44,172 nt of DNA from Natrialba swarupiae (GTDB lineage Archaea; Halobacteriota; Halobacteria; Halobacteriales; Natrialbaceae), in the NCBI RefSeq assembly GCF_008245225.1, contig NZ_VTAW01000029.1, positions 1 through 44,172 on the forward strand, given 5' to 3'. The first letter of the stretch is position 1, and every line of letters starts with the position of its first letter. Below, one piece after another: positions 38,531 through 43,034 of the stretch. Under the pieces are notes generated by a model. That model searched no databases, was not told the DNA's origin, and was given only the letters and a program-made list of their open reading frames with translations. Both the position numbers and the translations under genes were made by a program.

Positions 38531-39202
38531 CGTCGTGACGTGCAAATCGAGATTGGCGACTGGTCGGTAGCGTTCTCCCGTGGCGAGCGTACTGGTGTTC
38601 CAAGCCTGCACTACAGGGTCGAACTCGGTGGCGTAGCTCGGTTCGTCCCCTCAAACGATTTACTGTCAGTCAGTTCCGGCCCACTCGCGACCGGGACGGC
38701 GGTTGCGCCGGGACATCGGGACAACAGCCCGTATCAGTCGAGGTGTGGGAGGGTAGTACGATCCGAAGTTGGCCGAGCGGATATCTCGATACGAAAAATA
38801 AATCATATGTTGCGATATGAAATGTCCTGGCTCGGATGCTATCGAAAGCGTTCGGGAAGTCTGCGTCGACGCGGGACGTCGTACCAACTGCTGTACCGAC
38901 GGATCGGTGAAACCACTCCTATTTCTGCAGGTGTGCCAGTATCGACGAACAGCAGTCCGTGTGAAGGTGAACGTCTGCGGCCAGGGTTCGAATGTCAGTC
39001 CCGTTCTGTTGGAAGTGTGTCTGATGCCAACAGTTAACGGTGCATAGAGCGAACCGACGACTACCGTTCGTAGATAGCCGCGCTGGATGTGGATCCGGTC
39101 ACAGTGGGCCAAGATCTATGAATCATCGGTCACGGATAACTGAGACTGCGAGTGTTGCCGATCGCCCCACGGGATAATCCGACTGAACTCGTCGGTGCTA
39201 CT
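38531..39202. other. gene-poor intergenic region
   Basis: About 670 bases with lower GC than the neighbours and no recognisable protein. The A/T patch aaaaataaatcatat (38794-38808) could be a promoter for the 76-codon plus-strand frame at 38817-39047, but that frame is Cys-rich and without family likeness, so I do not call it. gggataatcc (39171-39180) is the probable TATA box of the following regulator gene. Confidence 0.45.
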
Positions 39203-39895
39203 ATGGTGTTAACGGCCGAAATCACGGTTTCGACGGATACGTTCGCTCTCGGCAGCCTGTTCGAGACGTTCCCGAACGCAGTCGTCGAGTTCGAACCGGT
39301 AGTGCCACTACAGGGTGACCGAGAGACGAACACCCCGCTCGTCTGGATCACCGGTGTCGAACCGGAGCGGTTACTACCGGCCCTGCGCAAGACCGACGAC
39401 GTCGAAGCCGTCCAACGGCTCGCAACCGTCGACGAGAACGTCCTGTTAGAACTCGAGTGGGGCGACGATCTCGACGGAATCGTCCAACCACTGCTCGACA
39501 CCGGTGGGCGACTCCTCACCGCCAGAGGGACAGCAACCAACTGGAAGTTCGACCTGCTTTTCGACTCACACGTGTCGCTTTCGGAGTTCAACATGACGGT
39601 CACGAACAACGGGATTCCGGTTACGTTACGTAAACTCTCCAGTTCGACGGTCCAGCGAGAGCCCAGCGACGGCGATTCCGATCGCTCGATCCTACCGAAT
39701 CACCGAGAGACACTGTTACTGGCCTACCACAGCGGTTACTACGATACGCCACGCGAGTGCCAACTCGCCGAGCTCGCGTCGAAAGAGGACGTAAGCGACA
39801 GCGCGCTGTCGAAGCGACTTCGCCGTGCAACTGCGAGCCTGATCGAACGGACGCTTCTCGACGATGAAAGCGTCGGTGACCCGAGTTACGAGTGA
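39203..39895 (+). CDS. Bat-type HTH transcriptional regulator
   Basis: A 230-residue regulator of the bacterio-opsin-activator class found throughout haloarchaea. The N-terminal ~150 residues form the usual small-molecule or protein sensing domain (EITVSTDTFALGSLFETFP, VWITGVEPERLLPALR, EWGDDLDGIVQPLLDTGG). The C-terminal HTH_10 domain spans about 168-225 (LPNHRETLLLAYHSGYYDTPRECQ, LAELASKEDVSDSALSKRLRRA, IERTL). There are no PAS or GAF domains, so it is the short form. The TATA-like GATAAT at 39173-39178, 27 nt upstream, supports ATG 39203. Target genes are unknown; the nearest downstream genes are the secreted acidic-protein family. Confidence 0.88.
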   Translation: MVLTAEITVSTDTFALGSLFETFPNAVVEFEPVVPLQGDRETNTPLVWITGVEPERLLPALRKTDDVEAVQRLATVDENVLLELEWGDDLDGIVQPLLDTGGRLLTARGTATNWKFDLLFDSHVSLSEFNMTVTNNGIPVTLRKLSSSTVQREPSDGDSDRSILPNHRETLLLAYHSGYYDTPRECQLAELASKEDVSDSALSKRLRRATASLIERTLLDDESVGDPSYE

Positions 39896-40319: not shown

Positions 40320-40763
40320 ATGACAGACAAAAACCAGAATCAGACAGGCGATACGAGGCGAGCGTTCATCAGGAACGGAACACTCGCGGCCACCGCACTC
40401 GCGGTTGGGACTGGAGCGACGACCACCGCCACCGCGGCCCCCGACGAAGACGCCGTCCTCCACGGGAGAGATTACTATCCGGACGTCGACTTCGATATCC
40501 TGACCCAGTTCGGAACGGGGACGCGAAACAACTTCCTCGAGGAGTACGACCCGGATGAGGACGTGTTCACCGATCCGGACGACTGGGAGGTGTTCGTCAT
40601 CCGAATCGACATCGGCGAGAGTGAGGGCGAGCTGGGACACCTGATGCTCGACGTCGACAACGACGAGCCGGACGTCGACCCCGGCGACTCGGGCTCGATG
40701 GGCGAAATTGGCTCGTTTCGCGATCCCGAACGAAATCTGATCGAAACGGAGGTCGATCTCTGA
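40320..40763 (+). CDS. Tat-exported protein, paralog 1 of a three-member family
   Basis: A 147-residue protein with a Tat signal (DTRRAFIRNGTLAATALAVGTGA). The mature domain of about 105 residues shares a pattern with 40766-41404 and 42429-43034: RDYYPDVDFDILTQF, FLEEYDPDEDVF, DDWEVFVIRIDIGE, GELGHLMLD, GDSGSMGEIGSFRDPERNLIETEVDL. It stops right after this domain and lacks the acidic tail and DDGILG end of the other two. It has no catalytic motif. Many Asp/Glu side chains suggest a salt-adapted or cation-binding extracellular protein (inference). The next paralog starts 2 nt downstream, so the two form an operon. Confidence 0.7.
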   Translation: MTDKNQNQTGDTRRAFIRNGTLAATALAVGTGATTTATAAPDEDAVLHGRDYYPDVDFDILTQFGTGTRNNFLEEYDPDEDVFTDPDDWEVFVIRIDIGESEGELGHLMLDVDNDEPDVDPGDSGSMGEIGSFRDPERNLIETEVDL

Positions 40764-40765
40764 TC

Positions 40766-41404
40766 ATGACGTCAAACGATCGAAACCAGACGGACGAGCC
40801 AGCGGACTCCCGAACACTGGAGACAGCCACAGCAACCGCAGTCGTGGCCGGTGGCGGTATCGCGGCCACCGCGGGTACTGCAACGGCCCAGGACACCGAG
40901 GACGTCGTCGTCAAAGCGAGAGATTACTACCCCAACGAAGAGTTCGTCGTCCTGACCGATTTCGAGGAACGAAATCGAAGCGAGTTCCTCGAGGAGTACG
41001 ACGACGGCGAAGACGCATTCGACGACCACGACGACTGGAACGTCTACTCGATACTCATCGAGGCCGGCGAGCCGGCGGGGGAATTAGCGGTCATGATGAT
41101 CGACAACGACGTGGATCCGAGCCCGGGCGACCGAGGGACGATGGGCGAGTCGCCGTCGTTCTGGAATACCGAATGGGATCTGCTCGAGGTCGACGCCACG
41201 TTCAACGATGAGGAGGATGAGAACGACGAAGACGATGACGACGAAGACGATGACGACGAAGACGAAGCCGATGACGACGAAGACGATAACGACGAAGCCG
41301 ATGACGACGAAGCCGATGACGACGAAGCCGATGACGACGAAGACGATAACGACGAAGCCGATGACGACAATGACGAGGAGAACGACGACGGAATCCTCGG
41401 CTGA
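40766..41404 (+). CDS. secreted protein with Asp/Glu repeat tail, paralog 2
   Basis: A 212-residue protein starting 2 nt after paralog 1. The N-terminus has a hydrophobic signal-like stretch (TATATAVVAGGGIAATAGTATA) but only a single Arg (SRTLE), so the twin-arginine motif seen in paralogs 1 and 3 is lost. It is either exported differently or not exported. The core repeats the family pattern (ARDYYPNEEFVVLTDF, FLEEYDDGEDAF, DDWNVYSILIEAGE, GTMGESPSF, DLLEVDATF). The last ~65 residues are almost only Asp, Glu, Asn and Ala in 5-residue units (DEADD/DEDDN), ending DEENDDGILG, the same end as paralog 3. Confidence 0.7.
   Translation: MTSNDRNQTDEPADSRTLETATATAVVAGGGIAATAGTATAQDTEDVVVKARDYYPNEEFVVLTDFEERNRSEFLEEYDDGEDAFDDHDDWNVYSILIEAGEPAGELAVMMIDNDVDPSPGDRGTMGESPSFWNTEWDLLEVDATFNDEEDENDEDDDDEDDDDEDEADDDEDDNDEADDDEADDDEADDDEDDNDEADDDNDEENDDGILG
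41225..41365 (+). repeat. 15-bp coding repeat array (acidic tail)
   Basis: There are nine units of 15 bp (gacgaagacgatgac, gacgaagccgatgac or gacgaagacgataac): two at 41225-41254, a 6-bp partial, then seven at 41261-41365. Each unit codes for five residues (DEDDD, DEADD, DEDDN). The frame is kept throughout, so units can be gained or lost without harming the downstream DDGILG end. Confidence 0.9.
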
Positions 41405-41657
41405 CGACACCGCTTTCGGTAGCCGGTCGTGTCTGTAGGGCCCGCCAATGTTACGGGCTGGGAGGGGTCTCTCCCAGTCGATTGCCGCCCGTCTGCGATC
41501 GACCGGCGACCAGTCATCGCAAACCGTCTGCGCCGTAGCCGGATGGCGGTCTCGGGCGGCTACGCGAGTTGCGATCGCGGTCGGTTCTGGAAGCGAGCCA
41601 GGGATCGGCCTGCGACTCGTTATCGAGCTGGTGTGGAATGGCGTCGACCGACCGCGT

Positions 41658-41677
41658 CCCGTTCACTTGTGAACGGG
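41658..41677. repeat. perfect 9-bp inverted repeat with 2-base centre
   Basis: cccgttcac tt gtgaacggg. As RNA it would make a tight stem, limited by the very short loop. As DNA it is a near-palindromic protein-binding candidate. Nothing adjacent decides between these. Confidence 0.5.
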
Positions 41678-42124
41678 CCCTCTATGCAGGCCCGTGTACG
41701 TCGGATCCGGCGCAATCGTCGCCTGATCCGACTTCCTTCGGACGGCCGTCACAACACCCCGTGTCAGTCGTTTCGACAGTTTTCGTAACGGACACACACT
41801 GGGGACTTATGATCCTCGTCGGTGGAGAGAGACCCGTTCGTGCCAGTCGAGTAGCTCGCAGGAAGTGAAGAGTTGTAAGTTCCCGAACACGTCACTACGG
41901 AGATTAGTGGCCGCGAACACCGACAACGCCGTCGACCGTGTCACCACCACCACCGAACTGGGACGGTACGGCTGACGGATTGACCGAACAGTTTGCGAAC
42001 GAACGCTAGCGTGTAGCCAGGCGTAACGATCCTTTCACGCACCCTCGGTCGAGCGTGAAGAGCCATCGCCTCGCGACGCCTTCCGATACGACGCACCCAT
42101 GAACGAAACTCGAGGGAGCGGGCC

Positions 42125-42289
42125 GTGACGAACGCGCCCGGTGACGATCTCGTACGATCTGTCGTACGGCAGTGGCTGTTCAATCGCGACCCACCTGCAA
42201 TCAAAGCGGTACATCGCCGGCTTGACCGAAACGCCGTTCGAACCGACCGTGTTTCGCTCGTTGCACTCGAGTGGCTCACTGGGCGCTGA
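42125..42289 (+). CDS. possible small protein of 54 residues
   Basis: A GTG-started frame reading MTNAPGDDLVRSVVRQWLF, then PPAIKAVHRRLDRNAVRTD, ending SLVALEWLTGR. The composition looks helical and protein-like, with mixed acidic/basic residues and no Ser/Arg-rich shadow character. It lies in otherwise empty DNA. No TATA box or SD site was recognised and no family is known to me. It may be a chance frame. Confidence 0.3.
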   Translation: MTNAPGDDLVRSVVRQWLFNRDPPAIKAVHRRLDRNAVRTDRVSLVALEWLTGR

Positions 42290-42428
42290 CTGGTGATCGC
42301 AAACGGAATCGTTCGAGACGGGTATCCAAGATCGCTTCGGTCCCGCCACGATGGGACGGCGGGGTCACCCTGCCGTGACCCCGGATGTCGTCGTGGATCC
42401 GTTCGATCCCGAAGTAGAGAAGAAAGGG

Positions 42429-43034
42429 TTACCCGAGGATGCCGTCGTCGTTTTCTTCGTCGTCCGGCTCTTCATCGTTCGGTTCCTCGTCGTTTTCGTC
42501 TTCCATATCCTCGTCGTTTTCGTCGGCGGGCTCGTCGTCAGGGTCTTCCTCGTCCTCCTCGTCGTCAGGGTCCTCCTCGTCGTCAGGGTCCTCCTCCTCT
42601 GCCGTAACGTCGACCTCGAGCAGGTTGTGCTCCGGACTGCGGAAGGAAGCGGTCTCGCTGAACGTCCCCGTGTCGCCATCACTGAGGTTGAGTTCCTCCT
42701 CGTCCATGAGGTAGCCCAGCGGGCTCCCGTTGCCATCCGTCTCGATCCGGATCGCGTACACGTTCCAGTCATCCGGAGCGTCGAACACGTCGCCGTCTTC
42801 GTCGAGGTTCTCGAGGAAGCTGTCACGCGTCGGCGTGTCGAAGTCGGCGATCACCTGGAAGCTCGTATCCGGGTAGAAGTCGTGGGCGTGCACCACGGCT
42901 TCCCCCTCGTCTTCTTCTTGGGCAACAGTACTCCCCGCGGTAGCGCCGGCACCGACTGCGAGGGCGGTCGCAGCCAGTGTGCCTTTCTTCATAAATGAAC
43001 GCCGTGAGTCTCCGTTTTGATAGTCCTTGCTCAT
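42429..43034 (-). CDS. Tat-exported protein with acidic repeat tail, paralog 3
   Basis: A 201-residue protein with a clear Tat signal (DSRRSFMKKGTLAATALAVGAGA). The mature core repeats the family pattern (AHDFYPDTSFQVIADF, FLENLDEDGDVF, DDWNVYAIRIETDG, GTFSETASFRSPEHNLLEVDV). The C-terminal ~65 residues are acidic with EEDPDD-type repeats and end DEENDDGILG, like paralog 2. Codons of this end differ between the two genes, so the match is at protein level. It is convergent with the paralog 1-2 operon. The A/T patch aataaata at about 43079-43086 is the likely TATA box, giving a short leader. ATG 43043 is an alternative start three codons upstream. Confidence 0.75.
   Translation of the reverse strand: MSKDYQNGDSRRSFMKKGTLAATALAVGAGATAGSTVAQEEDEGEAVVHAHDFYPDTSFQVIADFDTPTRDSFLENLDEDGDVFDAPDDWNVYAIRIETDGNGSPLGYLMDEEELNLSDGDTGTFSETASFRSPEHNLLEVDVTAEEEDPDDEEDPDDEEDEEDPDDEPADENDEDMEDENDEEPNDEEPDDEENDDGILG

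Follow-up and report, generated by a model that had tools for sequence, protein, structure and literature searches.

An unnamed haloarchaeal family of small proteins with Tat signals, tandem paralog pairs and a recurring acidic-hydrophobic C-terminal tip

The window analyzed here, a 44,172-nucleotide stretch of Natrialba swarupiae DNA (contig NZ_VTAW01000029.1), contains three genes for paralogous proteins, P1, P2 and P3, in which an export signal and an acidic tail are distributed differently. Both elements are found on one chain in P3, as in most family pairs, and are split between the two chains in P1/P2. How a paralog with a degraded signal could leave the cell, and what the identical C-terminal end of P2 and P3 may be used for, are the questions raised by this locus, whose features are the following.

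39152..39895, + strand: gene of a BAT + HTH_10 regulator, bacterio-opsin-activator type, located upstream of P1/P2 (Pfam; neighbourhood clustering)
40320..40763, + strand: P1, core-domain paralog with an intact Tat signal (DTRRAFI) and no tail
40320..40439, + strand: P1 Tat signal peptide, MTDKNQNQTGDTRRAFIRNGTLAATALAVGTGATTTATAA
40440..40760, + strand: P1 core domain (alignments)
40766..41404, + strand: P2, core-domain paralog with a degenerate leader lacking the twin arginine, an acidic tail and a DDGILG tip
40766..40888, + strand: P2 degenerate leader, Ala/Gly-rich, with ATAQ at its end
40889..41203, + strand: P2 core domain
41204..41401, + strand: P2 acidic low-complexity tail
41372..41401, + strand: P2 terminal decamer DEENDDGILG
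42429..43034, − strand: P3, core-domain paralog with an intact Tat signal (DSRRSFM), an acidic tail and a DDGILG tip
42918..43034, − strand: P3 Tat signal peptide, ending in ...STVAQ (TIGR01409 Tat model just under cut-off)
42600..42917, − strand: P3 core domain, modelled by AlphaFold2 as six strands and one helix (mean pLDDT 91.9)
42432..42599, − strand: P3 acidic tail, predicted disordered (pLDDT 54-60)
42432..42461, − strand: P3 terminal decamer DEENDDGILG

Open reading frames were found at exactly 40320-40763, 40766-41404 and 42429-43034, where the sequence-only reading of this DNA had placed three paralogous genes. P1 and P2 form a tight pair on the + strand, with a gap of 2 nt between the P1 stop and the P2 start, and the core of about 100 residues shared by the three proteins is ~43-49% identical for any two of them. 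That reading had recognized no named family in this core, in agreement with our searches of P1-P3 by sequence against Pfam, NCBIfam, PHROGs and the PDB, which returned no significant match, only the Tat signal and low-complexity noise. Some relatives are labelled "calcium-binding protein" by NCBI, and no calcium-binding domain model (EF-hand, RTX) was matched in Pfam or NCBIfam. Structure prediction, which had also been proposed for the core, gave a confident AlphaFold2 model for P3. A Foldseek search of the predicted P3 structure against the PDB and viral models gave nothing below E 0.1, and the best VIA-align matches (Z 4.3 or less) were ribosomal S28e, EutN, SSB and gene V protein. As these matches were weak and tied among unrelated folds, no fold is named for the core.

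Relatives of P1-P3 were detected in 77 of the 125 Natrialbaceae genomes by whole-genome search, and a profile search added f17, a second haloarchaeal family in which members were present in 20 sampled genomes, often in multiple copies, but no other sampled family; a scan of genome contigs with P3 as the sole query gave no match. Three plasmid records matched the family, and phage records did not. In the best-supported reading, P1-P3 are members of a haloarchaeal family, as yet unnamed, of small proteins that are exported by Tat and have a mixed beta/alpha core. The family is real, conserved and uncharacterised, and has an interesting export layout.

Several members depart from the common architecture. 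At L091:2396-3364 (−), the family core is joined to a copper-binding domain of the plastocyanin/azurin type (PF00127, E 3e-15); no other domain fusion was seen, and this one may point to redox surroundings. Longer exported proteins at L092 (genome G032) match the core only in part (E 1e-11 to 1e-16) and are possibly a distant sister family. In f17 (L289-L300), up to eight family matches are present in one genome; the first gene nearly always carries a MKKGALATGALALGLGS-type Tat signal, and the tails are short and Gly/Thr-rich or missing.

All three proteins had been described as secreted. This description holds for P1 and P3, whose clean Tat signals, read from the sequence, comprise a twin-arginine motif, a weakly hydrophobic h-region and an AxA-type cleavage site, but not in full for P2, whose degenerate leader (DSRTLETATATAVVAGGG...ATAQ, beginning DSRTLETATATAVV...) has a single Arg and no twin-arginine motif. 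Because this leader is degenerate, the export of P2 is not established by sequence. In haloarchaea, 39-55% of exported proteins go through Tat, and in Haloferax volcanii the twin arginines, which can be tested by RR-to-KK replacement, were described as essential for Tat export (PMC2945643); partners without RR thus need another route. Such a route is known, since Tat exports folded proteins and signal-less subunits can ride with a signal-bearing partner (PMC10924467).

In a hitchhiker arrangement of this kind, the tandem paralogs of the family would probably form complexes in the cytoplasm and be exported as one cargo of the Tat translocase, the chain with the RR signal bringing along the paralog whose signal had decayed or vanished. 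In the window, a pair of this sort would be formed by P1, which has an RR signal and no tail, and P2, which has a tail and lacks RR; P3 combines signal and tail on one chain. We infer from this layout that P2 is exported in a complex with P1. Co-export as a heteromer appears to be the simplest route for the RR-less partners, a proposal to which we give somewhat less than an even chance.

The members of 59 tandem pairs were classed by the presence of an intact Tat motif. Exactly one RR motif was present in 44 pairs, and exactly one tail in 50 of the 59; 12 pairs had two RR motifs and 3 had none, which speaks against co-export. Label shuffling gave p ~1e-4 for one RR per pair, a statistic that ignores kinship, and the association between RR and tail, with a Fisher p of 2e-13 on raw counts, became weak when kinship was respected (median p 0.07 with independent pairs on the tree), which also counts against co-export. 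As these p values either ignore kinship or weaken with it, the co-export claim is built on recurrence and gene layout. On the tree, a minimum of 13 changes was counted for the RR state and of 4 for the signal-less state, indicating that the difference between partners had several origins. Some 17 partners lack a signal of any kind: they start where the mature chain of the RR paralog begins (MVQDDG...), and their start codon often overlaps or abuts the stop of the RR gene. The same layout of an RR gene and a signal-less gene is found in f17, with its own signal-less partner, and the close, overlapping arrangement of the genes is conserved between genera and in f17. Orthologs of P1 and P2 occur together in seven loci, and the six P2 orthologs that lie beside P1 orthologs do not match RRx[FVLIM], L046 retaining an RR in KRRTAA. 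This RR/non-RR pairing, the feature most telling on mechanism, had been missed by the sequence-only reading.

Many non-RR partners retain an h-region and an AxA-like site, and might thus still be exported alone; in the co-export reading, their degenerate signals would be non-functional. Alternatively, each protein may work alone, the RR copies as soluble Tat exports and the degenerate or signal-less copies as cytoplasmic homologs, e.g., inhibitors, chaperones or regulators acting on the exported copy while it is still in the cell. The partners devoid of any signal fit this explanation, and tandem duplication by itself would put such copies side by side. However, Ala/Gly-rich h-regions and AxA-like sites would be odd in a cytosolic protein, P2 has kept the long tail and the tip of its exported relatives, and the overlapping gene order is conserved over the range given above, so that we consider independent action unlikely.

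In many loci (L058, L062, L070, L079, L082 and L088), the RR and signal-less pair is followed by a further, divergent paralog of the core, the third in the row, which has ~200 residues and a degenerate N-terminus of its own.

The co-export reading has precedents in Ni-Fe hydrogenase, formate dehydrogenase and PaoABC, in which one neighbour gene encodes an RR signal and the other does not, and in which one or the other subunit bears a C-terminal tail (PMC10924467, PMC4273604). Signal and tail are on one subunit in hydrogenase and on two subunits in formate dehydrogenase (PMC10924467). Unlike these hitchhikers, the partners in the P1-P3 family are paralogs that share a single small domain, for which no cofactor is known, their tail is acidic and disordered instead of a transmembrane helix, and their complex and co-export are proposed from the gene layout.

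The tails of P2 and P3 are built, as had been noted, from different repeat units (EADDD-type in P2, EEDPDD-type in P3) and finish with the same ten residues, for which 4 of the 30 coding bases differ, all synonymously, before TGA and TAA stops, respectively. In the model of full mature P3, the tail has a pLDDT of 54-60 and no secondary structure, and is thus predicted to be disordered. The D/E-rich composition of both tails makes chance terminal matches of 3-4 residues common, and more than 8 identical terminal residues were never obtained in 200,000 shuffles. P2 and P3 belong to different subclades of the tree, each fully supported, so that their shared end is old and has been retained, not newly copied. 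This result, together with the variation of the Gly codons, upholds the earlier argument for selection on the protein end against recent copying.

Among the ~130 family members, the tail may be acidic, Gly/Asn-rich, Asn/Glu, of another type or absent. The tip, an acidic run followed by G-[ILV]-[FL]-G at the extreme C-terminus, was identified in 17 members, as D/N-D/N-G-[ILV]-[FL]-G or a near variant. Its Gly is invariant (17/17) and is encoded by all four synonymous codons; the next residue is I, L, V or F in all of them, the following one F, L or I in 16, and the final Gly is found in 13, the chain ending 1-3 residues past the tip Gly. A single clade of 33 rows (support 100/98), which includes P1, P2 and P3, accounts for 16 of the 17 tips, and shared ancestry thus explains much of the sharing. 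The single tip outside this clade belongs to L034, a locus of Natronorubrum bangense. Well-supported branches force at least five gains or losses of the tip.

These data bear on whether the tip has a role of its own. Outside the cell, the disordered acidic tail would serve as a soluble spacer, and by the short motif of the tip (DDG-hydrophobic-hydrophobic-Gly-COOH) the protein would dock onto a partner at the surface or in the envelope. That the tail holds out a docking tip in this way is a tentative proposal, for which we would claim no more than a modest likelihood, well under an even chance; the tip is lacking in most of the family and in some close P2 orthologs (L040, L046 and L021), which argues against it. 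The tail may instead be a generic halophilic spacer, for solubility or cation binding, and the shared tip an inherited remnant with no role of its own. The concentration of tips in one clade is what would then be expected, and Gly-rich or Asn/Glu tails replace the acidic tail in other members, suggesting that the spacer itself is freely exchangeable. Nevertheless, the Gly and hydrophobic positions stay constant while the spacer is freely rewritten and the Gly codons turn over, and a similar end is found in the unrelated DUF6517 proteins described below and once outside the main clade, which makes a mere remnant rather unlikely. The earlier suggestion that selection conserved the end is thus sustained in one respect, the tip being kept while the spacer changes, and weakened in another, much of its sharing being accounted for by ancestry.

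Two other roles of the C-terminus were considered. Folding of Tat substrates takes place in the cytoplasm, where the tip could be read before the protein is exported, either for quality control or as a C-terminus that shields an unstructured tail from proteases. A long disordered tail would be a natural proteasome entry point, but most tailed family members have no tip, and we find this explanation very unlikely. As for an anchoring or processing signal like the PGF-CTERM tail of archaeosortase substrates, the likeness lies in a conserved C-terminal element on exported haloarchaeal proteins; the family, however, has no PGF motif, transmembrane helix or basic cluster at its end, and only 1-3 residues follow the tip Gly, so that such a signal is highly improbable. 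The docking proposal resembles, as a working principle only, the C-terminal tip of bacterial SSB, in which a folded core is followed by a disordered linker and an acidic-hydrophobic end that docks partners (PMC7145534). Unlike SSB, the P1-P3 family is exported and has no SSB sequence match, its OB-like fold matches being weak and tied (Z ~4).

The occurrence of the ending in other acidic-tailed proteins had been put forward as a test of whether it is a tag. The only two instances of the pattern [DN][DN]G-hydrophobic-[LF]-G-stop in the window genome are the ends of P2 and P3. With the looser DDG-hydrophobic-hydrophobic, 0-3 residues, stop, the acidic-tailed exported proteins among the in-frame matches read in this genome were P2, P3 and the product of a DUF6517 gene, whose C-terminus is ETDDGIIDL. 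In the 125 Natrialbaceae genomes, most of the other stop-ended tip matches were DUF6517 lipoproteins (PF20127), in which an acidic or Ser/Asn/Asp linker leads to DDG[IVL]LG or related forms. Like the P1-P3 family, these proteins are exported and have an acidic low-complexity linker and often a DDG[ILV]LG or DDG-hydrophobic end; unlike it, they have an unrelated core, an N-terminal lipobox and a more variable ending. A Pfam scan found no DUF6517 core in P1-P3, the C-terminal end alone being shared. The ending thus recurs in unrelated exported proteins and the idea of a tag survives this comparison, but is unproven. We infer a partner for the tip, which may also recognize the similar end of the DUF6517 lipoproteins. 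Outside Natrialbaceae, the exact tip gave only 4 matches in ~296 genomes, which is the chance level.

An acidic linker with a hydrophobic tip as a general rule of exported proteins was rejected: a 1.2 Mb ORF scan of a close relative (G079) found three Tat or lipobox ORFs with a strongly acidic tail, of which only the family member has the tip. SDR reductases ending in RVDDGLLG (L137, L141-L143) look cytosolic, lack an acidic linker and were set aside as a coincidence. A very acidic repeat protein of ~430 residues (L108, G034:C1:1372961) has a signal-like N-terminus, ends in DDGLLG and had no Pfam match. A secreted hydrolase-like protein (L102-L107, L112 and L113) has an acidic run and an aromatic tip (DDDDDGWW, GDDGWGWF), a design that superficially resembles the family tip.

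Taken as a whole, the reading of these as Tat-exported proteins whose paralogs leave the cell in paired complexes, equipped with a disordered tail and a docking tip, is one that we favor tentatively, at not far below an even chance. Its broadest form, a new widespread Tat module in which the signal was repeatedly lost in one partner of co-exported paralog heteromers, and in which a new, extracytoplasmic docking motif at the C-terminus (acidic run-DDG-[ILV]-[FL]-G-COOH) common to at least two unrelated exported families serves one receptor, is doubtful. If the reading is true, these loci would offer paralog pairs in a natural gradation, from two signals through one worn signal to none, on which paralog hitchhiking could be tested in organisms amenable to genetics; the tip, as it recurs, would be a precise six-residue target in the search for an extracellular docking partner.

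Finally, the gene neighbourhoods of the family loci revealed no functional partner besides the BAT/HTH_10 regulator. Neighbourhood clustering placed homologs of its gene (39152-39895) in six further family loci, and this regulator may control the P1/P2 pair.
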